A program made the position numbers and the translations under genes. Shown here piece by piece: positions 2,529 to 28,927 of a stretch of DNA of 35,944 nt. The DNA is from an uncultured Methylococcaceae bacterium (GTDB taxonomy: Bacteria > Pseudomonadota > Gammaproteobacteria > Methylococcales > Methylococcaceae): NCBI GenBank assembly GCA_903930145.1, contig CAIYXP010000046.1, forward strand, positions 1 through 35,944, written 5' to 3'. How positions within the stretch are numbered: position 1 is the first letter of the stretch; each line of letters opens with the position of its first letter. Under the pieces are notes generated by a model that worked only from the letters and a program-made list of their open reading frames with translations, was not told the origin of the DNA and did not search any database.

Positions 2529-4613
2529 ATGCTAATCGAACTCGCGCTAGTTGGCGGGGGTGCCGCACTTTGGAGTAAGCTCAAACGCAAGCGGCCCAAT
2601 CTGGCCTATCGACTCTCCAACACACCAAGCCCATCGCCTTTATCCCATTACAAGGATCTAGCTCACGACGTGAAGAATGCCATATGGGGCGATGAGCGGC
2701 AACAGCTCCAAATGACGATTGATCCGGACTTGCGGGCAGAGATTGAACGACGCAATAAGGAAGAGAAACGCAATTTGAGGTTATACGCAGGGGCGACCGG
2801 AATAGCGCTTCTCGGAACGTTATACCCGGCATTTTATTGGCTGGGCAGCGTGGCAGTCATTTACATGACGCGTCCTCTTCTTGGAATCGTCTGGCGGGAT
2901 TTCCAAAAAAAGCACTACTTGAGTGTTCCCATGATTTCGGTCTTTCTCGTGTTCGGCATGATTGCCACAGGAAGGCTCGCGTTGGCGGCCATCGGAGGGC
3001 TGATAGGCGGCTTTCTGGTGATACTGATTCGAAAAGCCGAGGACAGTTCAGAGAAACATTTGATAGACGTGTTCGCGGGACATCCAAGCCGAGTGTGGCT
3101 CGAAAAGGATGGCGTAGAAATTGAGGTACCGTTCGAAACCCTCCAAAAAAACGACCTAGTGGTCGTCAATGCCGGAGAAATTATTCCGGCTGACGGTGTC
3201 ATCAAAACAGGTTCGGCCAGCATCGACCAACATATCCTGACCGGTGAAAGTCAGCCCGTGGACCGGGGCGTTGGAGAAAACGTATTTGCGGCGACGCTGG
3301 TATTGGCGGGTCGCATCACCATTCAGGTCGAAACCGCCGGTGAAAAAACGGTCGCCGCCAAGATCGGACATGTGTTGAACAACACGAAAACCTATAAAGA
3401 CAACCAGATGCTGCGGGGCAAGAAAATCGCCGATCGTCTGCTGCCCGTGGAGCTAGGCATCGCGGCGGTGACTTTGGGAGTATTGGGTCCGGTACCCGCC
3501 TTGGCCATACTCTGGTCGGGTTTGGGTTCGCGCATGATTTTGTATGGCCCGATGAGTGTCCTAAACTATTTGCAAATTCTAGCGAGGCAGGGGGTCTTGA
3601 TCAAGGATGGGCGGGTATTGGAATCTTTGCGCCAAGTGGATACGGTTGTGTTCGATAAGACCGGAACCTTAACGCTGGAGCAGCCGAGTATAGACACCAT
3701 TCACCGATTTGGTGACTACGACGAAAACCAAGTATTACGCTATGCGGCCAGTGCGGAGTTTCGCCAAACCCACCCAGTCGCCAGAGCCATTACCGACGAG
3801 GCGCGGCAACGTGGAATACCGCTGGCCACGCCAGAGGACACCCGTTATGATGTGGGCTACGGCATCAAGGTGTATCTGGAACAAAAACAGGTGCATGTAG
3901 GCAGCAGGCGATTCATGCAACGCGAGGGGCTCGCGATGCCGGAAGGGCTGGATAATTTGCTGGAACGAACCGAAGCGCTGGGATATTCGCTGATCTATGT
4001 AGGGGTTGATGGCGTGGTGGCTGGCATTTTGGAAATGCAGCCCAGCATTCGTCCGGAAGCTCATGAACTGATCGAAAGTCTCCGTAAACGTGGACTGGCG
4101 ACCTATATCATTTCCGGCGACCATGAAGAACCCACTCGCAACATCGCGGAGCGACTTGGTGTCGACCATTATTTCGCGGAAACTCTACCGGAGAATAAGG
4201 CGGAGTTGATTAACCGCTTGCGGCACGAGGGAAGATTCGTCTGCTATGTCGGCGACGGTATCAATGACGCCATCGCATTGAAATCCGCGCAGGTGTCGAT
4301 TTCTTTGAAAGGCGCCTCCAGCGCGGCGACAGATACCGCACAAGTGGTACTCATGGATGGAACCTTGGGTTATCTGAGCAAGCTGTTCCAAATAGCGGAT
4401 GAGTTCGAACATACCATGCGGAATAACCTTCTGCTGAGTATCGCGCCTGGCATCATCAATATTGGAGGCATTTATCTGCTGAACTTCGGCATCGCGGCGA
4501 GTGTGGGCCTGTTCTACGTCGGCAGCACGGCGGGTTTGGCCAATACCGTTCTGCCCTTTGTCAGGCATCGGGAGAACCGGCCGCCACGAATCGAGAATGT
4601 CAACAATCGGTAG
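2529..4613 (+). CDS. P-type ATPase, heavy-metal-like, lacking CPC motif
   Basis: Membrane ATPase of the P1B-like fold, 694 residues, with no N-terminal HMA metal domain. Visible motifs are TGES (about 238), the phosphorylation site DKTGT (about 376), the HP dipeptide 'QTHPVA' (about 415) and GDGIND (about 575). The membrane metal motif CPC, expected 23 residues before 'GVLIK', is replaced by Leu-Gly-Ser (about 332-334), although the following Pro (341) is kept. The transported ion therefore cannot be inferred from the usual P1B rules. The N-terminal 90 residues are soluble and charged, and are shared with the remnant at 1682-1951. A homologous ATPase at 33454 closes the other end of the cluster. 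The start ATG has no clear Shine-Dalgarno. Confidence 0.9.
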   Translation: MLIELALVGGGAALWSKLKRKRPNLAYRLSNTPSPSPLSHYKDLAHDVKNAIWGDERQQLQMTIDPDLRAEIERRNKEEKRNLRLYAGATGIALLGTLYPAFYWLGSVAVIYMTRPLLGIVWRDFQKKHYLSVPMISVFLVFGMIATGRLALAAIGGLIGGFLVILIRKAEDSSEKHLIDVFAGHPSRVWLEKDGVEIEVPFETLQKNDLVVVNAGEIIPADGVIKTGSASIDQHILTGESQPVDRGVGENVFAATLVLAGRITIQVETAGEKTVAAKIGHVLNNTKTYKDNQMLRGKKIADRLLPVELGIAAVTLGVLGPVPALAILWSGLGSRMILYGPMSVLNYLQILARQGVLIKDGRVLESLRQVDTVVFDKTGTLTLEQPSIDTIHRFGDYDENQVLRYAASAEFRQTHPVARAITDEARQRGIPLATPEDTRYDVGYGIKVYLEQKQVHVGSRRFMQREGLAMPEGLDNLLERTEALGYSLIYVGVDGVVAGILEMQPSIRPEAHELIESLRKRGLATYIISGDHEEPTRNIAERLGVDHYFAETLPENKAELINRLRHEGRFVCYVGDGINDAIALKSAQVSISLKGASSAATDTAQVVLMDGTLGYLSKLFQIADEFEHTMRNNLLLSIAPGIINIGGIYLLNFGIAASVGLFYVGSTAGLANTVLPFVRHRENRPPRIENVNNR

Positions 4614-5032: not shown

Positions 5033-5923
5033 ATGCAAAAAATAGTTCTGGCTACCGGGGAGTCTTTGCAGATAACCAATAACAACTTCGCCGCTGAAGT
5101 CACGGAAGGTTTTCAGCCTGCGATCTTGGCAAGATTGGTTGCTGGAGAAACTTTAGCGATTCATATGAAAAATGCTGTCGACCCAGAATGGTGTCAGCAA
5201 GTCACGGAGCGGTTTATACAGCATCCCGCCACAACAACGGAAAATGTGACGCCCCCCCTTTATTCCTTGGGTTCTCATTTATATTCCTGTGCCGCTGGCG
5301 ATGAAGTCTCCGGTTATTTCCTTAATGTTGAAAGAATGAATGGGGCCATTAAGAGTGTACTACCGGAAGGTCACGACCCGATTGTAGCGTTTTTGCAAGA
5401 GGCTTGTGAGTTGAATAACGCCAAATTTGAGTATTTGTCCTGTAATGGCATGAGTGTCCGGCACGGCTCGCTTCGGATTTGGGGGAAAGGAGCGCAGGCA
5501 TCTAATGATAAGCAATATTACTTTGCCGCTCCACATGAGGATTACGAAGAGACCAACGCCAATCACCCAGCGCTTCATCAGATTTATGGATTGAACAACC
5601 TCTATAGCATCATTTTGTGCATTGATGCTGTCGTGGACAGGGAACCGGAAACACTCGTATGGAATCGGCGTATGACCTTGGAAGAGATTCGTAACCCTGA
5701 CAATAAACATGCGTGGTCCTCCTACGGATATAAAGAATCCCTCATAGAAGGCATTGATGCAGTATCGATTCGCTTAAAAAAAGGCGATGCCGCCATTATT
5801 CCGGCTCACAATGTACATGCCGTCATCGGCCATCCTGGTTTTAATCGGTGCAGTTATATGGCGTTTTTTCATCTTGTAAAAACTTCGCCAGCCGGATTTT
5901 CAAAAATGGTCTTTCGAACCTGA
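5033..5923 (+). CDS. Putative Fe(II)/2-oxoglutarate-dependent oxygenase
   Basis: Soluble protein of 296 residues. The C-terminal half carries what looks like a non-heme iron facial triad: His168-x-Asp170 in 'PHEDYEE' and a distal His at 259 or 262 in 'PAHNVHAVIG', followed ten or so residues later by Arg272 ('FNRCSYMAFFHL'), a plausible 2-oxoglutarate carboxylate ligand. The Asp in H-x-D argues for a hydroxylase or related oxidase, not an Fe/2OG halogenase, which would have Ala or Gly there. It is the first gene of a plus-strand run with AlaX, sulfotransferase, PLP enzyme and GNAT, so a free amino acid or carrier-bound intermediate is a reasonable substrate. Family assignment rests on motif spacing only. 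Confidence 0.6.
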   Translation: MQKIVLATGESLQITNNNFAAEVTEGFQPAILARLVAGETLAIHMKNAVDPEWCQQVTERFIQHPATTTENVTPPLYSLGSHLYSCAAGDEVSGYFLNVERMNGAIKSVLPEGHDPIVAFLQEACELNNAKFEYLSCNGMSVRHGSLRIWGKGAQASNDKQYYFAAPHEDYEETNANHPALHQIYGLNNLYSIILCIDAVVDREPETLVWNRRMTLEEIRNPDNKHAWSSYGYKESLIEGIDAVSIRLKKGDAAIIPAHNVHAVIGHPGFNRCSYMAFFHLVKTSPAGFSKMVFRT

Positions 5924-5984
5924 TGCCCATTACGGTAGAATAACCAACAGCAACTTTTGTCAGGATGAAATAATTATTATCAAG

Positions 5985-6722
5985 ATGAACACAAACCTGA
6001 AATATTTAGACGACACCTATGCCAACACGGATGAGGCGGTCGTGTTACGCATTGGCCGAGATGATCGCGGTTCATACATAGTGTTGAATCAGACCATCTT
6101 TTACCCACAGGGCGGAGGCCAGCCTGCGGACACGGGATTCATTCAGTCGGGACAGACCGTCATGAACATTTCATTCGTCGGATTCAGCGACGGCGAAGTA
6201 CTCCACTACGTTGACGAGGAACCGCCTGTTTTTGACATGCTAGTTGGTCGGTTATGCGAGTTGAGCGTGGATCTGCCACGGCGATTGGAGCATGCGAAAT
6301 TACATACGAGTGGTCACCTGATTGCCGGAATCATCGACAAACAAAAAGGTTCGATGCGGGCGGTGAAGGGTTTTCATTTTCGCGAGGGACCCTATGTGGA
6401 GTTCGAGGGAAAGCCGGAAGGCGATACCGATGCCTTGCTTGTAGACCTGCAAGCGCGGATTGATTCGCTCATTGGCGAAAACCCACGAGTATTAACTTCC
6501 ATGGTCACGCATAGCGAGTTGAAACAGCATTGCTGGAACATTCCATCCCAATTACCCCAAGACAAGCCGCTACGAATTGTCACTATAGACTCGTTGGATT
6601 CCGTGCCTTGCGGGGGAACCCATGTAGCAAGTTTAGCCGAGTTGGAAGCGGTATCCGTGTTGAAAATAAAAAGCAAAAAAGGATGTACCAAGATTAGCTA
6701 TCGGGTAGGTAAAGAAGGCTAA
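5985..6722 (+). CDS. AlaX-type alanyl-tRNA editing protein
   Basis: Free-standing homologue of the alanyl-tRNA synthetase editing domain; such proteins hydrolyse mischarged aminoacyl-tRNA(Ala). The length of 245 residues fits the medium AlaX class. Seen directly are the glycine-rich signature 'FYPQGGGQPAD' (39-49) and both zinc-binding halves, HTSGH (107-111) and CGGTH (209-213). The catalytic and zinc residues therefore appear intact. It sits 61 bases after the oxygenase and 148 bases before the sulfotransferase. An editing factor within a biosynthetic run suggests protection against an amino-acid analogue made by the neighbours (inference); a housekeeping role is also possible. Confidence 0.9.
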   Translation: MNTNLKYLDDTYANTDEAVVLRIGRDDRGSYIVLNQTIFYPQGGGQPADTGFIQSGQTVMNISFVGFSDGEVLHYVDEEPPVFDMLVGRLCELSVDLPRRLEHAKLHTSGHLIAGIIDKQKGSMRAVKGFHFREGPYVEFEGKPEGDTDALLVDLQARIDSLIGENPRVLTSMVTHSELKQHCWNIPSQLPQDKPLRIVTIDSLDSVPCGGTHVASLAELEAVSVLKIKSKKGCTKISYRVGKEG

Positions 6723-6870
6723 ACCTGCCTTCGTGAGCATGGCAGCAGCTACTTAGAGCAATGGCATGAAAGGGATGTAATCTTTATTCTCCCACCACTG
6801 GCGAAAGCAGGGAAAGCACCCCGTCCGCAATCGCCCAAAACAACCATTTGAGAAACCTATAGAGGCAGAT

Positions 6871-7626
6871 GTGCTAGATAAAATACTTGCTGTATGGGGA
6901 ACGCCCCGAACACGTTCCACCGCTTTTTTGTGGATGATGAAGCAGCGCGGTGACTTCCACACGTTTCATGAACCTTTCGGCAAGTCCTTTTATCTCAGCG
7001 AAGATCGCAAAAGTAATCGTGCAGACGATCAACCACCGCAGGCCGACCTAAATTATCAGGCCATTCTAAACATGCTCGAATCGTATAAAGGGAAAGATGG
7101 ATGTTCAGTGTTCATCAAGGATCTCTCCTACCATATGGAGGGAGTTTTTGATGAAGAATTTATGTCGCACTTCCACAATGTATTCCTGATTCGGGATCCG
7201 GCGAAGACACTGCCGTCACTTTACTCGGTTCTGCCTGACTTCACAGGAGACGAAATCGGATATGACACGCAATACAGAATGTACCAGCTTGTGCTCGAGA
7301 ATAGCAATGGTTTGCCACCATTGATCCTTGACGCCGATGAACTGGTAACCAATACGGATGCCTTAGTACGCGGTTTTTGCGAACGCTTGGGTATTCCATT
7401 CATCAAGGAGTCGCTGCAGTGGGAGAATATTCCAGCTTCGACTAATCTGACTTGGTGGATAGGAGGCGACGGACATCACGGAAATTTAAAGGCCAGTACG
7501 GGTTTTCGAGCAAATCGATTCAAAGATTATCCAGAGATAGCAGAGGTTCCTAAACTGGCGAAAGCTTACGAGGAATGCATGCCTTATTATGAGAAGCTCC
7601 ATGCGAACCGCTTTATACCTTTGTGA
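6871..7626 (+). CDS. Sulfotransferase family protein
   Basis: Cytosolic PAPS-dependent sulfotransferase-like protein, 251 residues. The N-terminal phosphosulfate loop is 'VWGTPRTRSTAF' (8-19). The middle 'NVFLIRDPAKTLPSLYSV' corresponds to the 3'-phosphate-binding 'RdP...S' motif of the family. It starts at GTG 6871 preceded by AGAGG. The substrate is unknown; candidates are a hydroxylated product of the upstream oxygenase. PAPS would come from the APS kinase at 16150-16755. A hairpin follows the stop at 7642-7670. Confidence 0.8.
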   Translation: MLDKILAVWGTPRTRSTAFLWMMKQRGDFHTFHEPFGKSFYLSEDRKSNRADDQPPQADLNYQAILNMLESYKGKDGCSVFIKDLSYHMEGVFDEEFMSHFHNVFLIRDPAKTLPSLYSVLPDFTGDEIGYDTQYRMYQLVLENSNGLPPLILDADELVTNTDALVRGFCERLGIPFIKESLQWENIPASTNLTWWIGGDGHHGNLKASTGFRANRFKDYPEIAEVPKLAKAYEECMPYYEKLHANRFIPL

Positions 7627-7641
7627 GTTACGCTAATATAA

Positions 7642-7670
7642 CCTGATTGCGGCAAAAGTCGTCAATCAGG
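7642..7670. terminator. Hairpin after sulfotransferase, terminator-like
   Basis: CCTGATTG CGGC, loop AAAA, GTCG (one G-T pair), bulged T, CAATCAGG: a 12-bp stem starting 15 bases after the stop codon. No T-run follows, so intrinsic termination is uncertain. It could attenuate transcription into the PLP enzyme or stabilise the upstream mRNA end. Confidence 0.45.
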
Positions 7671-7802
7671 CAGAAAGTTTCGGTCGGGGGCCTATGGATG
7701 CCTCTAAATCGGTGGCTTACACTGGCAATATTACACCTTTTTCGCAGCATTCGGGCTTTTTCGATAGCCCCATAAGCCTGGATACATTCGAGAGGATTTT
7801 CT

Positions 7803-8894
7803 ATGAAGCATTATGAGACAGAATCCACGTTGGATCACTTGTGCAAACCCTCGCTGGTTCGCCTAAGACCCAATCTGTTCGCCGCAAAGTTTGATTTAAT
7901 GAAGATCGTCCCGGCGCGCTATATTGTCGAGCAAGCCTTGGCGCGTGGCGATCTGAAACCCGGTGGTTTGGTGGTTGAAAGCAGTTCCGGTACTTTCGCG
8001 CTTGGTTTGGCGCAGACCTGTGTTACTTTGGGACTGAAGCTCGCACTCAAAACTGGGCCGGTAGAACCGATCGTGGCGTGGCGTTTGCGCCACTTGGGTG
8101 CCCAAATTGATACGGTCGAAAGTGATGCTGGCAATCTCCGGGAGATTCAGGAGCAACGCTTCAACCTAGTGCGGAAAACACTTGCGGAAGTTCCTGGCTC
8201 GTTTTGGCCAAGACAACACGATAACCCGCTCCATCCCGCTGCTTATGGCCCTATAGCCCATGCTATTGGGGAATCGTTAGGCAAAGTCGATGTTGTTGTG
8301 GCAACGATTGGTAGTGGGGGCTCATTGTTCGGGTTTGCCCGACCATTACGCGAAGCCAACCCTAATTTGAAAGTAGTCGCGGTAGACCATAATCTCTCCG
8401 TTATTTTTGGGCCGACTTCTGAACGCGTTTATCCTCTATGTCAAGAAAATTATGTACCTTTACTGGGCATGGGTTCGGATATTGTTTTTCCTAATGTCGC
8501 GCATGCCGAATGTGACGAGGTACATTGGGTTCCTGTGGCACAGATGATCAATACCGTGCATGACCTCCACCGGACTACAGGCCTGCTCGTAGGTCCAACG
8601 TCTGGCGCAGCGCTATCCGTGGCAGATTGGATAGCCCGCAACCATCCAACTATGAGGGTGCTCACCGTATTTCCGGATCATGGTATCCGGTACATGAATA
8701 CGGTTTACAATCCGCAGTGGTTAAGTGAACGGGCGGACGAATTGCAACGTAGTTGGCCCGAACCGGAACTCTGTAACACCCCCACCGAGGTTGCTGCTGA
8801 ATGGACTTGGTTCCCTTGGGGGCGGCGCAGTTATGAAGAGGTTTTGGGACATCCGCCAGTTTCCCGCGAGTCGCGCGTGAATGAGGCTGCCTGA
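7803..8894 (+). CDS. Cysteine synthase / CBS-like PLP enzyme (fold type II)
   Basis: PLP-dependent beta-replacement-type enzyme, 363 residues. The putative PLP lysine is Lys34 in 'FDLMKIVPAR', at the position of the family's SVKDR lysine. The substrate loop, normally TSGNT, reads SSGTF ('VESSSGTFALGLA', about 59-71). The phosphate-binding loop is 'GSGGS'. The missing loop Asn suggests a substrate other than O-acetylserine, for example in making a beta-substituted alanine (inference). A frameshifted remnant of a close homologue lies at 9813-10067 on the other strand. The ATG is preceded by 'GAGAGGATTTTCT', a usable Shine-Dalgarno. Confidence 0.85.
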   Translation: MKHYETESTLDHLCKPSLVRLRPNLFAAKFDLMKIVPARYIVEQALARGDLKPGGLVVESSSGTFALGLAQTCVTLGLKLALKTGPVEPIVAWRLRHLGAQIDTVESDAGNLREIQEQRFNLVRKTLAEVPGSFWPRQHDNPLHPAAYGPIAHAIGESLGKVDVVVATIGSGGSLFGFARPLREANPNLKVVAVDHNLSVIFGPTSERVYPLCQENYVPLLGMGSDIVFPNVAHAECDEVHWVPVAQMINTVHDLHRTTGLLVGPTSGAALSVADWIARNHPTMRVLTVFPDHGIRYMNTVYNPQWLSERADELQRSWPEPELCNTPTEVAAEWTWFPWGRRSYEEVLGHPPVSRESRVNEAA

Positions 8895-9017
8895 GTTAGT
8901 TAAATGTTTGACTATTTCTCATGTGCTAGATCAAGAATCGTTCTTAAATCATGACTTATCTGGATTCAAAGCACAGCCCATTGAATTGAAATCGCCATCT
9001 TCAAAGCAGTATCCAAG

Positions 9018-9812
9018 ATGAGAATACCACGTGAATTAGAAATTGTTCTAAATGGGCCGGTAGGTCCGCAACGAATACGCGATGATACCATCGTCATTGA
9101 CTCGGATGGCTGGTACCGAACCCTTACTCGTTCGGCGACGTATTCTGCTGCCAACGAGATACTTTTTTCTAATCTTGATAAAAAGGACCCCGATGCACAT
9201 ATCGATGCAATCTTTGCTGAATATCGCCAACATGGTCTACCGTTAAGTTGGTGTGTTTATCCGTGGACACAGCCTGCGGACTTGGGTAAACGGCTGCTGG
9301 CACGCGGAGCAACGGGTTCAAATATCCGTGCGTACTTGGCGGAAACTTCCCTGCCACTCAAGGTTGTAGAGGGTGTGGATGTTGAACGGGTCAACCCTAG
9401 TTTAACTGAAGGCTTTGAAGCATTCATGAGTATTTTATCCTCCGGGTATGCTCTTCCCGCTGATGAAGAAGCGTTCAGGCGTAGTCGTTACCGGCAATTG
9501 ATTGCCGAACCAAACCCAGTGATGCATCTTTTTATCGCGCGCTATGATGGCGCGATTGCAGGCTGCGCTGCCATGATCGTCAAGGAAGATTCCGCGCATC
9601 TGACCAGTAGCAGCGTACTCCCGGCATTCCAAGGGCGTGGCGTTTTTCAATCTCTCCAAGCTACAATTCTGGCGACATTACGGGACATGGGTATTGCGCT
9701 TGCCACCGGTCACTCTAATGACAAGTCGGCATTTTGGGTTGAACGGTTCGGCTTTAAGTTGATATACTCATACACGATCTATGAAGTTGAATGCACATCG
9801 CTTATTGGATGA
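9018..9812 (+). CDS. GNAT-family N-acetyltransferase
   Basis: Acetyl-CoA-dependent acyltransferase, 264 residues. The C-terminal half shows the GNAT core: 'LFIARYDGAIAGCAAMIV' (beta strands), the pyrophosphate-binding 'SSSVLPAFQGRGVFQSL' (the family's QxxGxG/A turn) and the closing 'SAFWVERFGFKLIYSYTIYEVE'. The N-terminal half is less conserved and may hold the acceptor site. It follows the PLP enzyme by 123 bases. A homologue with its core deleted lies at 14900-15183 in the opposed operon. The acceptor is unknown; self-protection of an amino-acid toxin by acetylation would fit. Confidence 0.8.
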   Translation: MRIPRELEIVLNGPVGPQRIRDDTIVIDSDGWYRTLTRSATYSAANEILFSNLDKKDPDAHIDAIFAEYRQHGLPLSWCVYPWTQPADLGKRLLARGATGSNIRAYLAETSLPLKVVEGVDVERVNPSLTEGFEAFMSILSSGYALPADEEAFRRSRYRQLIAEPNPVMHLFIARYDGAIAGCAAMIVKEDSAHLTSSSVLPAFQGRGVFQSLQATILATLRDMGIALATGHSNDKSAFWVERFGFKLIYSYTIYEVECTSLIG

Positions 9813-10067
9813 TATATTCCAGCGGGCCGGTCACGAGCGACAGGCGCAAGCCAAAGTTAACGCAGACCTGAGCCAACCCTAAGGCAAATGTCCCGGAACT
9901 GCTCTCCATATCACTAGGCCACCGGGTTGCAAGTCGCCGTTTGCCAAGGCAGTTTCCAGAATGTGCCGGGCCGGAACAATCTTCATCAGATCAAACTTTG
10001 CCGCAATAATACGCTGCTCCATTTGAATGAGGGAGGGCCCGCACAAGCCTGTCCAATACAGAATCAA
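9813..10067 (-). pseudogene. Frameshifted remnant of a cysteine-synthase-like gene
   Basis: The minus-strand frame reads 'AAKFDLMKIVPARHILETAL', nearly identical to residues 27-46 of the PLP enzyme at 7803. Near 9905-9912 the frame shifts; the continuation 'ESSSGTFALGLAQVCVNFG' is in another frame and again matches the paralogue. Homology ends at the GNAT stop codon (9812). About 85 codons remain of some 360. It lies at the 3' end of the minus-strand operon and mirrors the intact copy. Confidence 0.85.
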
Positions 10068-10107
10068 TTGTTCCGTTGTTGTGAGTAAAGCTTATTTTGC
10101 AACCTTA

Positions 10108-10770
10108 TCAATCAAGTACGTTGCCTTTTACCGCAACAATCAGAATATATTCTCTCCAAATATCGCGAAGTTGAGTTTCCACCTTGAATTTCCCCTGTGT
10201 TCTGAAAATCTCCACATGCGTTGCGGTACAAGAGCAATTGTCCAACAGGATTTTATAAAAAGAATCGGACTCCAGATAAACTTCGTAGTGGTTGTCGGGT
10301 GGTTCTGATGTGTTGCGTAATATGCCCATTCCTTCGTCGTTAGGGGAATAGGCCGCAAAGAAAAAATGTCCACCTGGCTTAAGACAGGCCGCCACACGGC
10401 TAAAGAAATCACGCTTTTTATCCGCAGGATAATCATCTATGACAAACATCGAAATCACATTGTCAAACGAACATGCCGCAATGTCGAGATCAAAAATGCT
10501 TTTCTGCCAAACCGTATCCATACGATTTTTAGCCTTCGCCAGCAGGGAAGCGGAAAAATCAACACCTATGATATTTCTTGCGTTGGCGAGTTCGGCAAAC
10601 AATCCGGTGCCACAGCCTAGCTCAATGGATGCCGTGTTAGCACCTTGAAGATACGGCACGGCTATTTTTGCCATTTTTTCAATGGCCTTGGTTCTGCCAG
10701 AGAGGGTGGCGATTTTATCGAAATCGTCGGCATCCCGTTTATCCCAATAATCCGTCAGTTTGCCGGTCAT
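10108..10770 (-). CDS. Class I SAM-dependent methyltransferase
   Basis: Small-molecule methyltransferase type, 220 residues. Motif I is 'SIELGCGTGLFAEL' (about 49-62), followed by the acidic strand end 'IIGVDFS' and a motif IV-like 'FDNVISMFVIDDY'. 'CLKPGGHFFFA' matches the post-motif strand. The ATG at 10770 overlaps the stop of the upstream gene by ATGA, so it is translationally coupled to it. Substrate unknown; the operon suggests a carrier-bound or free amino-acid-derived intermediate. Confidence 0.85.
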   Translation of the reverse strand: MTGKLTDYWDKRDADDFDKIATLSGRTKAIEKMAKIAVPYLQGANTASIELGCGTGLFAELANARNIIGVDFSASLLAKAKNRMDTVWQKSIFDLDIAACSFDNVISMFVIDDYPADKKRDFFSRVAACLKPGGHFFFAAYSPNDEGMGILRNTSEPPDNHYEVYLESDSFYKILLDNCSCTATHVEIFRTQGKFKVETQLRDIWREYILIVAVKGNVLD

Positions 10771-11954
10771 TTTTTCATTCCTAATAGAGTGCGCAAATAA
10801 TTTGCAGGTTTTTCAAAAGCCAGAAAAGACAAAAACTCTTCCCTCGGTGTCTGTGTGGCGAGCATCACCGCGATTTGGTTTTGGAAATACTCGACCGTTT
10901 CCGCGAGAGCGGCCTCTAAGCGGTCATTTGCCAACAATAGTTCGTTGGGATCGGTCGTATCCACGTATAGGTGCGTCGACACCATTAATTCAATGTATTT
11001 CTGGACTTTGGCGCAGTGCGCCGACATGCCGACAATCCTTGCTGATTCAGCAAGTATATTCATATAGATCGATTCGAGCGTGGCAAAGCTGAGTCCATCG
11101 CCCATCATATACTTGAGTGTCAGCCCTATCCTTTTCTCGTAAGGCGACAAGGCTACCTCGGAAGGGGTGGGAGGCGATGCGTAAACACCGCGTTTTGCCA
11201 GAATGCCAAAGGCATATTGCATTAGCATTATATTGGAGATTAAAAATACATAACCGCAGACATATTGGCAGGTCATTAAAAATGCAAATGCCGGGAAGTC
11301 AGGTTCGCCAAAGAGTGCCCGGAACGACTTCCCGGCATCTGCCCTTGCTACGGCTCGCCCGGCCAGAACCTCATCGAATTTGTTCATCATGACGGGCGAA
11401 CCGGCACAACACCACGGGTCATTGAGCAGTAAACCGTGTGCTTCCGCAAAAGCATAAGTGCTAATTGGCTGCGATGTGCTTGCTGCATAGTCCATCAACA
11501 TCAAATCAACCGTTGAGGGTACGCCCAAGGCAATCTTATGCAAACCGGAAACGGCTTGGGGCAATCTTATTTCTGTAATAGGCTTTGCGGTTTTACATCG
11601 CAAATACACAGGGGCAAACATGGGCAACAAGGCGGTTTGCCAAATGTCCCCGAGAAAAGGATAGCTTGCCGAAAACCGTAAAAATGTTTCTCGAAAAAAC
11701 TGCAAGCCGCCTAAAATCTCCTCCCACTCCGCGATGATTTCGTGCAAAGCCGCTTGGTTAATTAATAATCCTTGGCGGCTGTCTGAGTATTTGCACGGTC
11801 GGAAATTGTCCGGGCTTTGCTCGTCGCGAAAGCTCACCTCATGAAGACGGCGTTCCTTGTCGTCTAGAAGCCCAGAAATATCGGTAAACAGCCGGAAAAA
11901 GGCGGCATTTTTGTTTGAGTAGGCGGGAGCGGAGTTGACCGTGGCGGTTTGCAT
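10767..11954 (-). CDS. Unknown protein in carrier-protein operon
   Basis: I do not recognise this family. From ATG 11954 it is 395 residues; an in-frame TTG at 11969 would add five. The ATG is preferred because GAGGA lies just upstream. The protein appears mostly helical, with an early aromatic-rich segment, a 'DPWCCAGSPVMMNKF' stretch, and one long hydrophobic segment ('TCQYVCGYVFLISNIMLMQYAF') that could be buried or membrane-embedded. There is no Walker, Rossmann or metal-binding motif that I can name. It lies between the carrier protein (17 bases) and the methyltransferase (ATGA overlap), so it most likely acts on the carrier-bound intermediate. A 13-bp perfect inverted repeat lies inside the gene. 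Confidence 0.75.
   Translation of the reverse strand: MQTATVNSAPAYSNKNAAFFRLFTDISGLLDDKERRLHEVSFRDEQSPDNFRPCKYSDSRQGLLINQAALHEIIAEWEEILGGLQFFRETFLRFSASYPFLGDIWQTALLPMFAPVYLRCKTAKPITEIRLPQAVSGLHKIALGVPSTVDLMLMDYAASTSQPISTYAFAEAHGLLLNDPWCCAGSPVMMNKFDEVLAGRAVARADAGKSFRALFGEPDFPAFAFLMTCQYVCGYVFLISNIMLMQYAFGILAKRGVYASPPTPSEVALSPYEKRIGLTLKYMMGDGLSFATLESIYMNILAESARIVGMSAHCAKVQKYIELMVSTHLYVDTTDPNELLLANDRLEAALAETVEYFQNQIAVMLATQTPREEFLSFLAFEKPANYLRTLLGMKK
11288..11338. repeat. 13-bp perfect inverted repeat inside a gene
   Basis: ATGCCGGGAAGTC at 11288-11300 pairs exactly with GACTTCCCGGCAT at 11326-11338, with GTTC/GAAC able to extend the pairing inside the 25-base loop. It lies within the unknown coding region 10767-11954. 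Such a stem is long for coding DNA and could affect mRNA stability or translation. Confidence 0.7.
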
Positions 11955-11971
11955 AGCGTCCTCTATCAATA

Positions 11972-12250
11972 TTAACGAATTTCATCTGCTGAGGATTCGC
12001 GCTTGCTTTGCGCAAACGTCGCCAGCGCAGTGATCGAAGTGAAGTGTTTGGGCACCATATCATTCATGCCAAACTCAACCTGATGCTGTTGCCCCAGGTA
12101 AGTGATCAAGTTCATCATAAAAAGCGAGTCCATGATCCCCGATTCAATCAGGTCATAGTCATCGTCGAAACCTTCTGGAGCCGTACCCTTAAGGGCTTCT
12201 TTGATAATATAGCGACGCAAATCGTCATGTATGTCCATAGCTAATCTCAT
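11972..12250 (-). CDS. Acyl/peptidyl carrier protein
   Basis: Carrier protein of 92 residues (88 if it starts at the second ATG, 12238). The phosphopantetheine attachment serine is in 'ESGIMDSLFMMNLI', the canonical (G)xDSL motif (about residue 42). Helix spacing and the C-terminal 'HFTSITALATFAQ' fit the PP-binding fold. It starts two bases after the stop of the AMP ligase, the enzyme expected to load it. A phosphopantetheinyl transferase is not present in the window. Confidence 0.9.
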   Translation of the reverse strand: MRLAMDIHDDLRRYIIKEALKGTAPEGFDDDYDLIESGIMDSLFMMNLITYLGQQHQVEFGMNDMVPKHFTSITALATFAQSKRESSADEIR

Positions 12251-12252
12251 GG

Positions 12253-13728
12253 TTATATTGTTCGTAATTTATCGGGGTTGCGAATCTTTTTGCCACTGGC
12301 CGTATAGGATAGCTGGCCGACCCACAGGAACCGGCCCGGAATTTTATGGCTGGCCAAATATTGCTTGCAGTAAGTCCTCAATTCGTCCTCACTGGGTTGG
12401 TCCTCGTTTTCTTTAAGCACCAGATGCGACCAGGCGGGTTCGCCCCATGAGGATTTTTCTTTGACACCAAACACCGTGGCACTTTGAATGGCCGGATGTT
12501 TTTCCAGCACAGACTCCACTTCTTCGGGGAAGAACTTCATGCCGCCAACACTGATCATTTCTTTACTGCGACCGACAATGTAAAGGAATCCATCCCCGTC
12601 CACCCGGCCTAGGTCGCCAGTCCTGAACCAACCGTCGTTTTGCTGCAAGAGGGTCTCGCGTGATCGCCAAGGCGAATAATAGGCATCCAGCATCCCCTTG
12701 CCCTTTATGATGATTTCCCCTTGTTGCTGGCCGGGGGGGCAGTCAAGCCGCAGGGCATAGTCAGGCAGTATTCTGCCGACAGAACCCTGCTTGTCCCTCG
12801 ACTGGCTGACATTAATCGCTGGCAAGCCCAATTCGATGATACCGTAAGTCTCATTGAGGACGCGCCCGAACCGCTGGTAAAAATGGGCGGCGGCGTCTTC
12901 GCGCAGGGCGGTGGTGGTCACAATGGCTAGCCGCAATTCGGGGGGCAGGCTGGCATTGCTGTCGTCTTGCGTCATCATCGCATAATGGGTGGGCGAGCCA
13001 TAGATTAGCGTAGCCCGGTGGCGCGACGCAGCCGTGAGCAGGGTAATGCCAAAACCATTTTTGGGCAGGATGATACTGGCGCCAAATGTCAGATAGGCGA
13101 CGATGGAAACCGCAAAATGATAATCCATAGACAGCAGCCACAAGATGCGATCCTTTGCGCCGATCTCCAGAATTTGATTGGCTGCGTGGATGCGTTCGAA
13201 AATGGATTCATGCGATAGCACCACGCCCTTGGCATCGCCGGTGGTGCCGGATGTGAATCGGATGAACGCGGCATTGATGCCAGCCAATTGCGGCGGTGCC
13301 TCGCATTGGGCATTGAGCTTGAGGTAAACGGCTTGCTCCGTGAGAGGAATAGCCTCAGGTGCGGTGGTGGTAGCGCCAACAAGCTGATCTAGGAGCCTGA
13401 CACTGGATATGGCAGCGTCGATATGGATGTACTGAAATATCTGCTGTTTCTCCGTGGCAGTCAACTCAAATGGCAAAGGGGTGACACAGGCACGGCAATT
13501 CCATAGCGCATACACGAAGGCGATATAGTCGCGCCCACTCTGATAATGTAGCCCGATATTGTCGCCCGGATTGACCCCGGCATCTCTAAGTTTCCCACTC
13601 AGGGATTCAACTTTTGCCTGAAATTCCGCATAGCTGGTTTTATCCTCCAGTTCCTGGCCCAGTATCAACGGATGACCGGGTTGTTGCTCCGCTTGTTGAA
13701 AAAAACATTCCGCCAAATTTAGGTTCAT
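12253..13728 (-). CDS. AMP-forming acyl/amino-acid ligase
   Basis: ANL-superfamily adenylating enzyme, 491 residues, which activates a carboxylic acid and probably loads the adjacent carrier protein. Core motifs are 'TSGTTGDAKG' (159-168), 'NETYGIIELG' (A5-like), 'GWFRTGDLG' (A7), 'GRSKEMISVGGMKFFPEEVE' (A8) and the C-terminal catalytic lysine in 'TASGKKIRNP' (A10). The open frame reaches 13944, but the start at ATG 13728 overlaps the preceding gene's stop by ATGA and begins with the family-like 'MNLNLAECFFQQAEQQPGHP'. The specificity pocket cannot be read reliably by eye. Confidence 0.9.
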   Translation of the reverse strand: MNLNLAECFFQQAEQQPGHPLILGQELEDKTSYAEFQAKVESLSGKLRDAGVNPGDNIGLHYQSGRDYIAFVYALWNCRACVTPLPFELTATEKQQIFQYIHIDAAISSVRLLDQLVGATTTAPEAIPLTEQAVYLKLNAQCEAPPQLAGINAAFIRFTSGTTGDAKGVVLSHESIFERIHAANQILEIGAKDRILWLLSMDYHFAVSIVAYLTFGASIILPKNGFGITLLTAASRHRATLIYGSPTHYAMMTQDDSNASLPPELRLAIVTTTALREDAAAHFYQRFGRVLNETYGIIELGLPAINVSQSRDKQGSVGRILPDYALRLDCPPGQQQGEIIIKGKGMLDAYYSPWRSRETLLQQNDGWFRTGDLGRVDGDGFLYIVGRSKEMISVGGMKFFPEEVESVLEKHPAIQSATVFGVKEKSSWGEPAWSHLVLKENEDQPSEDELRTYCKQYLASHKIPGRFLWVGQLSYTASGKKIRNPDKLRTI

Positions 13729-14903
13729 TGCCAATTTCCGCCCAAGTATTTGCCCACGGCTTCGCCCATTGCCCAGCAGGTTCCGACAACGCGAGCGGAT
13801 GCTTGTGCGCGTGGCTCCGCAGACAGGCATTTCCCGGCTGCCCACAGATTGGTGAAGCCCGCGACTTTCAGACTGCGCAGCGGTATGTCGTAAGTGCTGC
13901 CCGCCGGCAGGTATTCCAAATTCAATCCCTTGCCCGGATGCCAATGCTCAATCGGCCAGCAGGCACGGCAAGCCCTGTCCGCAAACTGCTTGCCTGACTT
14001 AACGTCCGCTTCCGTCAGGCAATATTCCCCCTTGATCCGCCCGCCATCACGGATACCCAATCGGCCATATGCGTTGATGAATGCTTTACCAAAAGCGGGC
14101 ATGGTTTGGAGAAAAGCCAGCAGCCGCTCGGCGGCGGATCGCATGGATGCGGTGTCATAATTGTCTGGCGTTACGTTAAATTTGGCGTAAGCCTCGTCAG
14201 GGTAAACGCCAGTATCTACCCACAGGGTCAGGCACTCCGGCGGCAATTGATGGGTCTCTGCCGCCTTGCGTATCTCCATTAACAGGGCAACGCCACTGGG
14301 AAAGCGAAGGGCATCAGTGGCAACGCCACGCAATTGTAGGATGACCCCCCCCAAAGCCACGCCATTTTCCACCCGCTCCGCATCAATCAACCGGACAACA
14401 TTGGCATCACCCGTGGCATCGACCACAGCCGCAGGCTGCACATTGTCGACATTGCCGTTAGAGGAGATAGTGATCTGCGCAATTTGGCCCGCATGGATGG
14501 AAAGCTGAGTGACGCTGGCGTGAAAAACGATGTCAATGTTGGGTTTGCTTGCCACCCAGTGGGTGACGACGTTGGCGTATTTTGCCGGATCGACATCCAG
14601 CACCCAGGTTTTGCCGATACGTCGCTGTTTTGTATAAGAACAGGCTTCGCCCAAGCGTTCGGCAAGTTCAGCCGGTAGGCCGGCATTGAGCAGGCTGCCT
14701 TGGTCGTCAAACAACCCCCCCAACGTGTGGATAAGTGCCTGACTGACCGTGCCGCCAAGTTCGGCTGATTTTTCCAGCAAAACGACGCTGGCCCCTGCTT
14801 CCGCCGCAGACAGGGCGCAACTGATGCCCGCCGCCCCAGCCCCCACGACGACGACGGGTTTTGACGGATCGGAACTTGGCCTGACCGGACGAATACCGTT
14901 CAT
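13725..14903 (-). CDS. FAD-dependent oxidoreductase
   Basis: Flavoprotein of 392 residues. The N-terminal dinucleotide-binding motif is 'VVVVGAGAAGISCALSAAEAG' (GxGxxG at about 21-26) ending in 'VVLLEK'. A second FAD contact, 'AAVVDATGDANVVR', and a C-terminal 'GFTNLWAAGKCLSAEPRAQAS' resemble FAD-dependent oxidoreductases of the fumarate-reductase/thiazole-enzyme superfamily (PF12831-like). The open frame extends to 14978, but the ATG at 14903 is preferred because it overlaps the stop of the GNAT remnant by ATGA. In the operon it likely oxidises the carrier-bound acyl group (inference). Confidence 0.85.
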   Translation of the reverse strand: MNGIRPVRPSSDPSKPVVVVGAGAAGISCALSAAEAGASVVLLEKSAELGGTVSQALIHTLGGLFDDQGSLLNAGLPAELAERLGEACSYTKQRRIGKTWVLDVDPAKYANVVTHWVASKPNIDIVFHASVTQLSIHAGQIAQITISSNGNVDNVQPAAVVDATGDANVVRLIDAERVENGVALGGVILQLRGVATDALRFPSGVALLMEIRKAAETHQLPPECLTLWVDTGVYPDEAYAKFNVTPDNYDTASMRSAAERLLAFLQTMPAFGKAFINAYGRLGIRDGGRIKGEYCLTEADVKSGKQFADRACRACWPIEHWHPGKGLNLEYLPAGSTYDIPLRSLKVAGFTNLWAAGKCLSAEPRAQASARVVGTCWAMGEAVGKYLGGNWQ

Positions 14904-15183
14904 CCGGCTAGCGAAGGAGGATCGATTTGATAGATACAGTAAGGGTATACGGGTTTGAAACCAAAGCGTAAAAGCCAAGGCACTTCGGTGGAATCGGGTT
15001 CAACCCGTTCGATTTCCGATCCCTCGACCCGTTGCAGGGGAAGCGAGGTGTCGCACACCAACGCCCTGACATTGGAACGGGTCGCTCCCCTACTGACATG
15101 CCTGTCCGCAAGATCCAGAGGCTGCGTCCAGGGATAGACGTACCATCGCATGGGACGGCCAAGATTTTGATATGAGAGAATGT
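14900..15183 (-). pseudogene. GNAT acetyltransferase remnant with core deletion
   Basis: The minus-strand frame reads 'WYVYPWTQPLDLADRHVSRG', closely matching 'WCVYPWTQPADLGKRLLARG' of the GNAT at 9018, and continues through 'DTSLPLQRVEGSEIERVEPD'. It then jumps to 'LLRFGFKPVYPYCIYQID', the paralogue's last strand. About 100 codons, including the acetyl-CoA-binding turn, are deleted in frame. The start is also missing: homology begins just after the HDO stop. The stop still overlaps the next gene's ATG, so the scrap may survive as a translational coupler. Confidence 0.85.
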
Positions 15184-15198
15184 CATGACGGCAGCGGG

Positions 15199-15960
15199 TC
15201 AGGCCGTGGCAAAATCTTGGGTTTTGCTGTCCGCCCGAATCTGGTCCAATAGATCGGCCCACCATTGGGTCATGGCCTCAATGGCGAGTTCGGCCCCCGT
15301 GAGCGCCTGTTGGGTGTTAATGGTTGGCCGCTCCCCATCCTTTTCGACCACGGTTTTGTCGAGTGGTAAACCTTGCAGAAATACGCCTAGCTCGTCCCGG
15401 TGGCTTTGCTCGACACCACTCAAGTGCATTTCATGGAACCAAACCAGCTTCTTGCCTTCTTCTTCCAGCTTACGCCTCTTCAGAACTTCGTTGGAAATGT
15501 CCAAAAACACTTCATGTTCGAAGATGGCAGCCGTTTCCGTGGCGAACATCGCACCCAAGACGGTCGAAGGTTCGCGGCCCACTATTTCGCCAATCGTATC
15601 AAGGAAGTGTGTGGTGGAAGGAAATTCCGTCCGGGTATCGATATCGATGCCTATTTTCATTAGCGCCTTCTTGTAAATGGCAGCGTGTCCGTTTTCTTCC
15701 GCGTGGTTACGAATCAGTTCTTGCTTGACGGCATCGGTGTCGAATGAACCCGCCAATTCAGCGGCAGCCGCCAGAAACTTGGTGTTCCGAAAGGAGAACT
15801 GGTAATGTTCCATCATCAGCCATTCCAGTGCTTCCGTGGAATATTGATCCAAGTTTTTGAGTTGCGCCTTCGCATGATTGATGAACGCTTGGTTACGCTG
15901 GTCAATAAATGCGGACACATCCAATTGGGTATTACTATTGTTACTCGTTGTTTCGTGCAT
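15199..15960 (-). CDS. Heme-oxygenase-like diiron oxidase (HDO family)
   Basis: Helical protein of 253 residues with the metal-ligand pattern of the HDO superfamily (UndA, BesC, SznF type): Glu51 in 'MMEHYQFS', His86 and His92 in 'NHAEENGHAAIYKKAL', Glu142 and Glu148-His149 in 'TETAAIFEHEVF', and the His/Asp-rich helix 'WFHEMHLSGVEQSHRDELG' (175-193). Known members cleave C-C bonds, form alkenes or oxidise nitrogen. The ATG at 15960 is chosen over 15972 because AGGA lies eight bases upstream. It is the first gene of the coupled operon; a possible promoter lies at 16107-16135. Confidence 0.8.
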   Translation of the reverse strand: MHETTSNNSNTQLDVSAFIDQRNQAFINHAKAQLKNLDQYSTEALEWLMMEHYQFSFRNTKFLAAAAELAGSFDTDAVKQELIRNHAEENGHAAIYKKALMKIGIDIDTRTEFPSTTHFLDTIGEIVGREPSTVLGAMFATETAAIFEHEVFLDISNEVLKRRKLEEEGKKLVWFHEMHLSGVEQSHRDELGVFLQGLPLDKTVVEKDGERPTINTQQALTGAELAIEAMTQWWADLLDQIRADSKTQDFATA

Positions 15961-16106
15961 GTTTATCCTCATTAGGTAAAAAAGAGCTATATGAAGCGGT
16001 AAGAGTTCACTCTCTTGGGCTTATATGTTTGCAAGTATGCTTAGCGTAACTATAACGGTCAGTCCGCATTTGCCTTGGTGCGTCGCCCGCCAAATTATCA
16101 GATGGC

Positions 16107-16135
16107 ATTTTCCTACAATTTTCAAAGTCTATCAA
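16107..16135 (-). promoter_or_regulatory. Possible sigma-70 promoter for HDO operon
   Basis: Read on the minus strand: TTGATA (16135-16130), 17-base spacer, GAAAAT (16112-16107). It lies in the 189-base gap between APS kinase and the HDO gene, about 145 bases before the HDO start. The -10 matches only four of six consensus bases. Confidence 0.3.
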
Positions 16136-16149
16136 TACGTTGATGAGAT

Positions 16150-16755
16150 TTAATCAGATAGGGCGATTTTATCGTTTTGTTCAAGGTATTGGATGATCTG
16201 CCTAGTGCATTCAGCCACGCCGCATTCCCCTGTCATGACGACGATTTCGGGGGTTTCCGGGGCTTCGTAAGGGGACGATATGCCGGTGAATTCGCTAATC
16301 TCGCCCAGCCTCGCTTTGCTGTAAAGACCCTTCACATCTCGCTGCTCGCATACACCCAGAGGCGCTTGGCAGTACACCTCAATGAAATCGCCCGCACCCA
16401 TTGATGCCCGGACACTGTCCCGACCGCTTCGGAACGGTGAAATGAAGGCCACGAGGGCGATGCACCCGGTATCGACAATCAATTTGCTCACTTCGCCCAC
16501 ACGGCGAATGTTTTCGGTGCGGTCGGCATCGCTGAAACCTAGGTCGGCGCAAAGCCCGTGCCGCACATTGTCTCCGTCAAGCACATAAGTCCGGCAACTG
16601 CGGAGAAACAATGCCTCCTCGACACTGTGGGCAAGCGTCGATTTGCCAGACCCGGAAAGCCCCGTGAACCAGAGAACGAAGCTCTTGTGCCCGTTCCGCT
16701 GCTCGCGCATTTGCCGGGTTACATTGGCTTGATGCCAAAGAATGTTTGTATTCAT
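16150..16755 (-). CDS. cysC: Adenylylsulfate (APS) kinase
   Basis: Phosphorylates APS to PAPS, the sulfate donor for sulfotransferases. Its 201 residues are normal for CysC. The P-loop is 'GLSGSGKST' (32-40), and the family signatures '[27 protein letters not shown]' and '[13 protein letters not shown]' are intact, with '[22 protein letters not shown]' following. No ATP sulfurylase gene is in the window, so APS must come from elsewhere. With two sulfotransferases nearby, a dedicated PAPS supply is the natural reading. Confidence 0.95.
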
Positions 16756-18900: not shown

Positions 18901-20529
18901 CTAGCCATGCTTTTCCTCATCCCATTCAAATTTGCCCTCATCCATTTTTAAAATGCGGTCGGCAACATGGAAGTAATGATCGTCATGAGTGACGGCAATC
19001 ACGGTTATTCCTGCCCGCTTCAATTCCTTGAGGATACTCTCATAAAAATATTTCCTGAAACCGGGGTCTTGGTCGGCGGCGAACTCGTCCAAGACCATTA
19101 TCGGCTTCCTTTCCAGGATGGCGGCGATAAGCGCCAAACGCTTGCGTTGACCGCTAGAAAGGCTGGTACTGGTGAAGCCGCCGCCTTGAAATCTGACTTT
19201 GCGGTGCATATCCATTTTTTCTAACCAGTAATCAACCTCAGCCGGATCAAGGCCCGTGATGCCGTAAATCCGGTCAAATAAGTGAAAGTCGGCAAATACG
19301 GCGGCAAACAATTCCCGGTAGGCTTGGTAATTGTCTTTGCAGACTACAATGCCGTCCACCTTGATTTCGCCGTTGCCGGGACTGTACAGTCCGGTCAACA
19401 ATTTTAGGAACGTTGACTTTCCGCTGCCGTTGCCGCCGATGATGAACAAGAGTTCGCCGGAACGGATGGTCTCCCGAAACGGCCCGCACGTGAACTCCGG
19501 TTCATTGTCTTTTCCCTGGTAAGAAAAACAAACGTCAGTGAAAGTGATTGCGTGGAACGGCAGGGCTTCTTGCCTTGCATCAGGCGACTCATTGGCGATG
19601 GCGGCATCCATGCCGCTTTCAAGCTCGGTCAAATCGTCAATGGCCAAGTCCACCCGATTGAACAACGGCAAGGCAAACACCAAGACGGTTACAGGCCCGG
19701 TCATGAACAACACGGTGGCTATTATTTTGTAGATGTCGGTAGCCAGTTCTCGGAAAAATGAAGGGATGATAAAAACCAGGATGGGCATCAGGGCATAGGT
19801 GAAAAGCCGGCCAAAACCCCATAATTTCACTTCGTGCAAACCCACCTCAAACCTGATCTCCTTGCTTTCCACCGAAGCATGGGCGATATGATTCAGGATG
19901 TCGGCGCTTTTTGCGCGATTCAGCCGGATTTCTTTGAAGCCCTCGATCAGATGGTTAATCAATCCGAAATAACCTTCATCCTCGCTTTTTAGGCGTTGCA
20001 GTTCGGATCGTATGTCATCGGCTTCAAACAGGAAAAGAGCCAAGGCGAGCCCCATCGATACCGTCGCAATTAAGAAGCTGACCGGCGAGATGTAAGCCAG
20101 GTAAAGTAGCGAAAACACTAGCAGGATACTTACCTGGGCGGCGCTGGTGATATGCGGGACCGCCTGCGACAGCAGCGTGTTGCTTTCAGTCAGGCGCGCA
20201 TAAAGGGTCCGCCCCCCCATGCCTTCGATGAAGGGCAGTTCCACATGGCGGATCTTTTCGATCAGACGGAGGCGTACAGTGTAGATGGATTCTTCAATGG
20301 CACCAATTGCTTGCCCATACGCGACCCATTGTGCATATAAAAAAAGGATAAAGACCGCCAAATAGAGCAAAAAGGCTTGGATTAGATCCTCGTCATTGGC
20401 AACTTTGAATGCGGCATGGTTGATGATGCTTAACAAAAATCCGTTGGCGATGCCTGAGATGGCAGCCATGATAATGATGCGCCGATAAGATGCATTAGAT
20501 TCTTTTTCTACGAACTTCAGCAGCTTCAC
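18901..20529 (-). CDS. ABC transporter, cyclic-peptide exporter (PvdE/SyrD-like)
   Basis: Half-size exporter of 542 residues. An N-terminal membrane domain (about 1-295, six hydrophobic helices) is fused to an ATPase domain with Walker A GGNGSGKST (365-373), signature LSSGQ (457-461), Walker B IMVLDE (477-482) and the H-loop His in 'AVTHDDHYF'. The layout and 'SSGQRKRLALIAAILERKPIMVLDEFAADQDPGFR' resemble PvdE/SyrD/YojI exporters of peptide-like metabolites. It starts at GTG 20529. It is the obvious exporter for the cluster product. A short inverted repeat (CACTC GAATTA GAGTG, 20556-20571) lies just upstream and could be an operator. Confidence 0.9.
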   Translation of the reverse strand: MKLLKFVEKESNASYRRIIIMAAISGIANGFLLSIINHAAFKVANDEDLIQAFLLYLAVFILFLYAQWVAYGQAIGAIEESIYTVRLRLIEKIRHVELPFIEGMGGRTLYARLTESNTLLSQAVPHITSAAQVSILLVFSLLYLAYISPVSFLIATVSMGLALALFLFEADDIRSELQRLKSEDEGYFGLINHLIEGFKEIRLNRAKSADILNHIAHASVESKEIRFEVGLHEVKLWGFGRLFTYALMPILVFIIPSFFRELATDIYKIIATVLFMTGPVTVLVFALPLFNRVDLAIDDLTELESGMDAAIANESPDARQEALPFHAITFTDVCFSYQGKDNEPEFTCGPFRETIRSGELLFIIGGNGSGKSTFLKLLTGLYSPGNGEIKVDGIVVCKDNYQAYRELFAAVFADFHLFDRIYGITGLDPAEVDYWLEKMDMHRKVRFQGGGFTSTSLSSGQRKRLALIAAILERKPIMVLDEFAADQDPGFRKYFYESILKELKRAGITVIAVTHDDHYFHVADRILKMDEGKFEWDEEKHG

Positions 20530-27600: not shown

Positions 27601-27636
27601 GCTGAAGATCAATCTCATGCCCATTTTTTACCAAGG

Positions 27637-28869: not shown

Positions 28870-28927
28870 TCTAGTGACAGTGCCATGAAATTATTTCACT
28901 TTAATAAATAATTTACCTAATAGTATA

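Follow-up and report, generated by a model that had tools for sequence, protein, structure and literature searches.

The window analysed here is the entire contig C46 (CAIYXP010000046.1; 35944 bases) of the 6.0 Mb genome of an uncultured Methylococcaceae bacterium (GCA_903930145.1), in which two converging gene sets between positions 5033 and 16755 belong to one conserved small-molecule pathway. The plus-strand set encodes a probable Fe(II)/2-oxoglutarate oxygenase (OXY), an AlaX-like protein, a sulfotransferase (ST) of the type that uses 3'-phosphoadenosine 5'-phosphosulfate (PAPS), an altered pyridoxal 5'-phosphate (PLP) enzyme of the PALP family (P0004) and a GNAT acetyltransferase. The minus-strand set encodes an adenosine 5'-phosphosulfate (APS) kinase, a probable haem-oxygenase-like diiron oxidase (HDO), an FAD oxidoreductase, an AMP-forming ligase, a carrier protein (ACP), a protein without a Pfam family (P0007) and a methyltransferase. 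In all 17 loci of the PALP subfamily examined outside HDO clusters, a GHMP kinase or its remnant is present, whereas in the window the neighbour of PALP is the sulfotransferase. As the best overall explanation, with a probability of about 0.45, we propose a single amino-acid-derived pathway in which sulfate replaces phosphate as the group that PALP displaces.

Linkage of the two gene sets

In Candidatus Thiothrix singaporensis (L011), genes for HDO, FAD oxidoreductase, ligase, ACP, a flavoprotein monooxygenase, OXY, AlaX, ST, PALP and GNAT follow one another in this order on a single strand, and their products are ~61-75% identical to the window counterparts. The gene order in Thiothrix caldifontis agrees with this, though it is spread over two contigs. 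One of them (L057) carries FAD (in two frames), ligase, ACP, OXY, AlaX, ST, PALP, GNAT, an aminotransferase and an ATP sulfurylase/APS kinase; the other (L013) carries a P-type ATPase, a transporter-like frame and most of HDO, a further piece of which lies at the end of L057 preceding FAD. To the two Thiothrix proteins, OXY is 70% and 74% identical, and GNAT 69% and 81%. Within the window genus, OXY-AlaX-ST-PALP-GNAT was also found in genomes G002 and G005, at 97-99% identity. HDO is common to the clusters compared. The flavoprotein monooxygenases of T. singaporensis and of a Rhodocyclaceae cluster (L012, see below) were considered as orthologues and rejected, as they share only 22% identity.

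The most direct evidence that both strands serve one pathway comes from gene remnants in the minus-strand operon. Between FAD and HDO lies a GNAT remnant with two large deletions relative to the gene that is intact at the same site in G005 (L010), and in that locus a PALP fragment follows ACP. The window also has a frameshifted PALP remnant. Taken together, these remnants indicate that the minus-strand operon formerly had its own GNAT and PALP, of which the intact copies now lie on the plus strand. A preliminary description of this DNA had proposed one pathway of sulfation, PLP chemistry and probable diiron oxidation, which the one-strand order in Thiothrix and the remnants bear out; the opposed arrangement that it described is a local rearrangement of a one-strand cluster. 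The cluster is bordered by a frame that by eye resembles a transposase (97-1425), for which Pfam gave no match, and by the remnant of a P-type ATPase (1679-1951, 48% identity over 91 residues), which fits its rearranged state. In line with the earlier statement that no described cluster with this set was known, none was found among the open-access papers listed by the literature searches.

The methyltransferase and P0007, previously counted as members, were dropped from the core. Neither had a match in L043 (G002) or L010 (G005), the loci that show the ACP end, and in L043 the ACP and GNAT genes are convergent and 48 bases apart, with neither gene in the gap. Distant matches to P0007 were found in 4 other genomes (151 searched), and in one of these loci (L003) the relative comes after a methyltransferase-like frame, as in the window; the two are perhaps a two-gene unit.

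The HDO query retrieved 12 loci from public genomes, and the close relatives that carry HDO are Methylococcaceae metagenome bins. At E<=0.001, HDO was detected in 4 of the 101 relatives searched, all belonging to the window genus (4 of 7 genomes there), and at E<=1e-20 the only hit among the 398 genomes of a phylum sample was the window's own genome.

The altered PLP enzyme and the exchange of its partner

PLP enzymes of the canonical CysK/CBS type carry a lysine loop of the form NPxxSxKDR together with SGNTG. In P0004, the alignment shows FDLMKIVPAR and SSGTF at these places, so that the canonical signature is lacking, and K34 aligns with the PLP lysine of a canonical relative. The canonical PALP copy in L012 (5385-6317) has NPAGSMKDR and TGNTG. 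The label of an altered CysK-like enzyme given earlier was therefore correct. P0004 instead has the motifs of a subfamily, LMKxxPA (with L or F at the first position) and SGTF, which were present in 24 and 23 of the 26 aligned rows, respectively. These rows came from rhizobia, Paraburkholderia, Cupriavidus, Azospirillum, Tabrizicola, Streptomyces and the HDO clusters. Both motifs were missing from L056 and the canonical L012 copy, and SGTF also from one L064 copy; L056 (S. pinistramenti, ~39% identical to P0004), which lacks a kinase match too, was rejected as a subfamily member. The P0004 model (mean pLDDT 57) has the SbnA/CysK fold and aligned with SbnA (5d87) at Z 25.3 and rmsd 3.6 over 268 residues, tied with many CysK/CysM entries. 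At E<=1e-45, PALP was found in at least 2 of the 398 genomes of the phylum sample (its own counted), and at E<=1e-60 in at least 1 of 369 genomes of a class sample (its own).

We examined 15 of the best 25 loci among 505 plasmid records with a PALP match; the ten listed loci left out are mostly close relatives of those examined. A GHMP kinase match (E<=1e-4) was found in 14 of the 15, spanning just part of the gene in L073, and the remaining locus (L069) contains a remnant of the C-terminal part of the kinase directly preceding PALP. L064 has two PALPs, the best-matching one ~2.8 kb from the kinase and the other beside it. In S. sulfonofaciens L055 and in L090 (genome G855), the kinase likewise adjoins a motif-bearing PALP, so that the kinase or its remnant was present in all 17 subfamily loci examined outside HDO clusters. 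No match to the window ST, APS kinase or HDO was detected within the fetched stretches of the 15 plasmid loci.

Two HDO clusters retain the kinase in whole or in part. In the Rhodocyclaceae locus L012, a short contig cut on one side inside a P-type ATPase, an intact GHMP kinase follows PALP, and in Acidobacteria (L019/L084), where HDO adjoins PALP in L019, an 87-residue frame matches residues 22-85 of the L012 kinase. Neither cluster yielded a match to OXY, AlaX, ST or APS kinase. Conversely, no GHMP kinase was found in the window, in the loci of both Thiothrix species or in those of the window genus. With the L012 kinase as query, there was no match at E<=0.01 in the window or its genome; of the genomes searched as a whole, G000, G001, G002, G516 (the G005 record), G517 and G519 gave none at this threshold, and G524 gave a match at 6.8e-60. 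In all five loci of this clade, which come from two species of Thiothrix and from three genomes within a single genus, ST adjoins PALP. APS kinase adjoins HDO in the window genus and is fused to ATP sulfurylase in T. caldifontis, two genes from GNAT; the fetched stretches of T. singaporensis gave no APS kinase match. In the clusters examined, OXY and AlaX were found only alongside ST (5/5 loci with ST; 0/2, L012 and L019, without it), which suggests that the hydroxyl to be sulfated may come from the oxygenase and that AlaX may shield tRNA-Ala against a product resembling alanine. In another genome (L083), a relative of ST (37% identical) is found one gene away from an APS kinase.

The tree of PALP sequences groups all sulfotransferase-linked rows in a single clade (100/100) that joins the HDO-linked sequences of L012 and L019 (96/93), beside the kinase-linked L063 and L064 (100/100), and is nested within the kinase-linked family. 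The tree left out L042 and L043 (near-copies of the window), L056 and L090; L019 was labelled as kinase-linked despite its truncated kinase, L069 was unlabelled, and the outgroup branch is very long. The simplest account of these sequences would be that the HDO-linked lineage exchanged its kinase for a sulfotransferase once, and this exchange backs the idea, raised in the preliminary description, of sulfate as a possible leaving group.

Proposed route and alternatives

In the relatives, the GHMP kinase would phosphorylate the hydroxyl of a hydroxy-amino acid, likely threonine or serine, and the altered PALP would displace the phosphate with a nucleophile. In the window, ST, supplied with PAPS by APS kinase, would instead sulfate that hydroxyl, which may be native or installed by the oxygenase, and PALP would displace the sulfate. 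A second arm comprising ligase, ACP, FAD oxidoreductase and HDO would activate and oxidise either the amino acid itself or a carboxylic acid. AlaX probably clears tRNA-Ala of a mischarged product or intermediate, which GNAT would acetylate. We infer each of these reactions from the sequences. The choice of threonine or serine follows from kinase-PALP sets of this kind, which we take to be diaminobutyrate (DABA) genes of uridyl peptide antibiotics, and from the origin of DABA. That origin is said to be threonine in PMC10714638. The more specific sequence of hydroxylation, sulfation and substitution, in which O-sulfation from PAPS would have evolved to replace O-phosphorylation by the GHMP kinase and the oxygenase would make the hydroxyl, is a tentative proposal that we hold somewhat less firmly than the general one.

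The leaving groups known for PLP enzymes that couple nucleophiles to amino acids are acetate, phosphate and water. For sulfate as a leaving group, PMC8713700 gives a precedent in strigolactone biosynthesis and cites ficellomycin as a microbial one. An exchange of kinase for sulfotransferase beside the same PLP enzyme offers a direct and cheap test of whether sulfate can serve as a leaving group. The sequence of hydroxylation, sulfation and substitution, if it holds, would be a general way to swap an unreactive amino-acid C-H for a nucleophile. In addition, the named strain Thiothrix caldifontis DSM 21228 offers a defined set of genes with which to look for a new compound whose synthesis involves a probable diiron oxidase.

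Several points weigh against displacement of sulfate by PALP. The tree shows a single exchange, and its co-variation therefore counts as one observation; the nesting of the sulfotransferase-linked clade also depends on the root. In the Acidobacteria cluster the kinase is truncated and the locus gave no sulfotransferase match, so that PALP may need neither or the locus may be decaying. The oxygenase label rests on four residues. Finally, the sulfate could be a final decoration, and PALP may use another donor. These last two points together make up an alternative that is possible, if less probable than our proposal: one pathway in which ST decorates the product, PALP draws on primary metabolism for O-acetyl- or O-phosphoserine, as SbnA or CmnB do, and the kinase was lost unreplaced. 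SbnA, which uses O-phosphoserine, is the best NCBIfam match of P0004 (TIGR03945) and heads the fold list, where it shares its rank with many CysK/CysM entries, and CmnB is the best PDB sequence match. However, P0004 scored 182 against the TIGR03945 cut-off of 349.95, its lysine loop and SGNTG are replaced, and both the kinase or its remnant in the 17 subfamily loci examined outside HDO clusters and the adjacency of ST and PALP in all five loci of the clade count against this alternative.

It is rather unlikely that PALP stands aside altogether, with the oxygenase hydroxylating and ST sulfating a carrier-bound or free amino acid, and an aziridine- or azetidine-like ring closure expelling the sulfate. 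PMC8713700 cites sulfation followed by cyclisation for ficellomycin, ST relatives (~32%) lie near cysC and cysD in Streptomyces non-ribosomal peptide synthetase (NRPS) regions, and the HDO reactions of amino-acid pathways listed in PMC13185094 comprise oxygen transfer, desaturation, C-C scission, and nitrile and azetidine formation. Ring closure of this kind nevertheless leaves the kinase-for-sulfotransferase exchange beside PALP unexplained. We give very little weight to the view that the minus-strand genes form a fatty-acid or alkene pathway of their own and only adjoin the plus-strand genes, as could be thought from the opposite strands in the window and from the ligase, which scores best with acyl-CoA ligase models. 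The single one-strand run in T. singaporensis, the PALP and GNAT remnants inside the minus-strand operon, and the adjacency of HDO and PALP in L019 all speak against it, and on gene order and remnants we rejected an independent fatty-acid pathway.

Gene assignments, neighbouring genes and known systems

All twelve genes named in the preliminary description were recovered as open frames at or near the positions given there, except that relatives move the ligase start from 13944 to near 13728; the two minus-strand remnants had been overlooked.

Table. Features of the window discussed in the text, with the evidence for each assignment (scores are given against the model cut-off).
Feature	Position	Strand	Evidence
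P-type ATPase P0017, without CPC metal motif	2529..4613	+	TIGR01525 373.5 vs 346.25
OXY (P0001), probable Fe(II)/2-oxoglutarate oxygenase	5033..5923	+	H168, D170, H262, R272 kept in 21% relative
AlaX-like alanyl-tRNA editing domain protein	5985..6722	+	PF07973 27.9 vs 24; PF01411; zinc motifs HAKLH, CGGTH
ST, PAPS-type sulfotransferase	6871..7626	+	PF19798 48.4 vs 23.2; PRTRST, RDPAKTLPSLY
PALP (P0004), altered SbnA/CysK-fold PLP enzyme	7803..8894	+	PF00291 113.9 vs 35; alignment, tree, fold comparison
GNAT acetyltransferase, intact copy	9018..9812	+	PF00583 39.9 vs 20.7
PALP remnant, frameshifted	9909..10046	-	67% to P0004, E 1e-23; frames inspected
Methyltransferase	10108..10770	-	PF13649 50.6 vs 27
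Unknown protein P0007	10767..11969	-	no Pfam family
Carrier protein (ACP)	11972..12250	-	PF00550 20.0 vs 20.8; NF052616 42.2 vs 130; DSL serine
AMP-forming ligase	12253..13728	-	PF00501 162.7 vs 29.9; start corrected from relatives
FAD oxidoreductase	13725..14978	-	PF12831 207.8 vs 27
GNAT remnant, two large deletions	14984..15172	-	intact counterpart in L010 10784-11608
HDO, haem-oxygenase-like diiron oxidase candidate	15199..15972	-	PF14518 (Haem_oxygenas_2) 28.5 vs 28.9; profile matches
APS kinase (PAPS supply)	16150..16755	-	PF01583 223.2 vs 21.1; NF003013 307.8 vs 163; P-loop GLSGSGKST, DGDNVR
ABC exporter, cyclic-peptide type	18901..20529	-	TIGR01194 314.1 vs 286.2

The weakest label is that of OXY, for which neither a Pfam match above cut-off nor a PDB sequence match above chance level was found. 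The 2-oxoglutarate type assigned to it before is consistent with the four tabulated residues, an HxD...H pattern with a candidate 2-oxoglutarate-binding arginine, which are invariant in 4 sequences; the model, built from a two-sequence alignment, reached a pLDDT of 29. In the phylum sample, OXY was found in its own genome and, at 21% identity, in two others, and plasmids and phages gave no match. The HDO and ACP labels proposed earlier are borderline, each just under its Pfam cut-off; HDO has profile matches, and ACP has the DSL serine. A profile of 11 HDO sequences matched the CADD-like PDB entry 3b5o at 8e-11, and as candidate metal ligands the residues E92, E93, H96, E146, E152, H153, E188 and H191 are invariant in the alignment of these sequences. 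The ligase fell below the cut-off of every NCBIfam model among the matches listed (25 models, mostly acyl-CoA ligases), and scored 152.3 with the amino-acid adenylating model TIGR01733 (cut-off 317.4). AlaX scored 120.6 with the AlaXM equivalog NF040865 (cut-off 300). In ST, both motifs that we take to be PAPS motifs are intact, and no PDB sequence match above chance level was found.

Other HDO relatives sit by different genes. Those of Streptomyces (43-44%; L016, L017, L020) include an S. clavuligerus plasmid (L020) annotated with HypE, HypF, isochorismatase-family, ATP-grasp and arginase-family genes; similar frames were seen by eye in L016, and a HypF-like frame in L017. These genes may form a pathway of their own that involves carbamoyl or cyano transfer. 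In Legionella (49-50%; L014, L015, L018), the frame after the HDO relative is 251-264 residues long, and the one tested (L014) had no Pfam match.

In four lineages (the window, with a further copy at 33454-35613, and L084, L012, L013 and L057), these gene sets are accompanied by P-type ATPases related to P0017, which stand beside HDO in L012 (47%), L013 (61-69%) and L019/L084 (40-46%). The CPC motif was present in none of the five tested (P0017, the 33454-35613 copy, two from L057 and the part seen of L084). The window's own genome contains six matches to P0017 at E<=1e-30, itself included. The ABC exporter has a 53% relative on the T. caldifontis cluster contig. A second gene set (26545-33066), followed by the 33454-35613 ATPase, encodes two histidine-type methyltransferases (PF10017), a sulfotransferase (PF13469), a chorismate-binding enzyme, an SDR and a G3P-dehydrogenase-like protein, and may share the APS kinase of the main cluster; resembling frames were seen by eye in L041 and L044.

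Among known systems, SbnA of 2,3-diaminopropionate biosynthesis has a fold like that of P0004 (25% identity in the structural alignment), from which it differs in the lysine loop and SGNTG motif; P0004 also lies below the SbnA cut-off. The amino-acid HDO BesC is a weak profile match to the window HDO (7twa, E 0.004), whose best PDB match is instead the uncharacterised 3b5o; of BesC, MboA and PolF, the sequence comparison covers BesC. The kinase-PALP-ATP-grasp-ArgH sets of Streptomyces (L065 and L075, beside NRPS genes) and Azospirillum (L067), presumably the 2,3-diaminobutyrate genes of uridyl peptide antibiotics, have a PALP of the same altered subfamily. In contrast to these sets, no GHMP kinase was found in the window, which has a sulfotransferase and an APS kinase instead, and no ATP-grasp or ArgH was recognised among its genes. 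The rhizobial GHMP kinase-PALP pairs, such as Bphy_7478/7479 of Paraburkholderia phymatum, share the PALP subfamily, whereas in the 4-8 kb fetched on each side neither HDO nor ST nor APS kinase of the window had a match. For nodules of a P. phymatum nifA mutant, PMC8305402 gives log2 fold changes of -8.24 for the kinase Bphy_7478 and -6.85 for the PALP Bphy_7479, a joint drop that supports the kinase-PALP pair as a unit.

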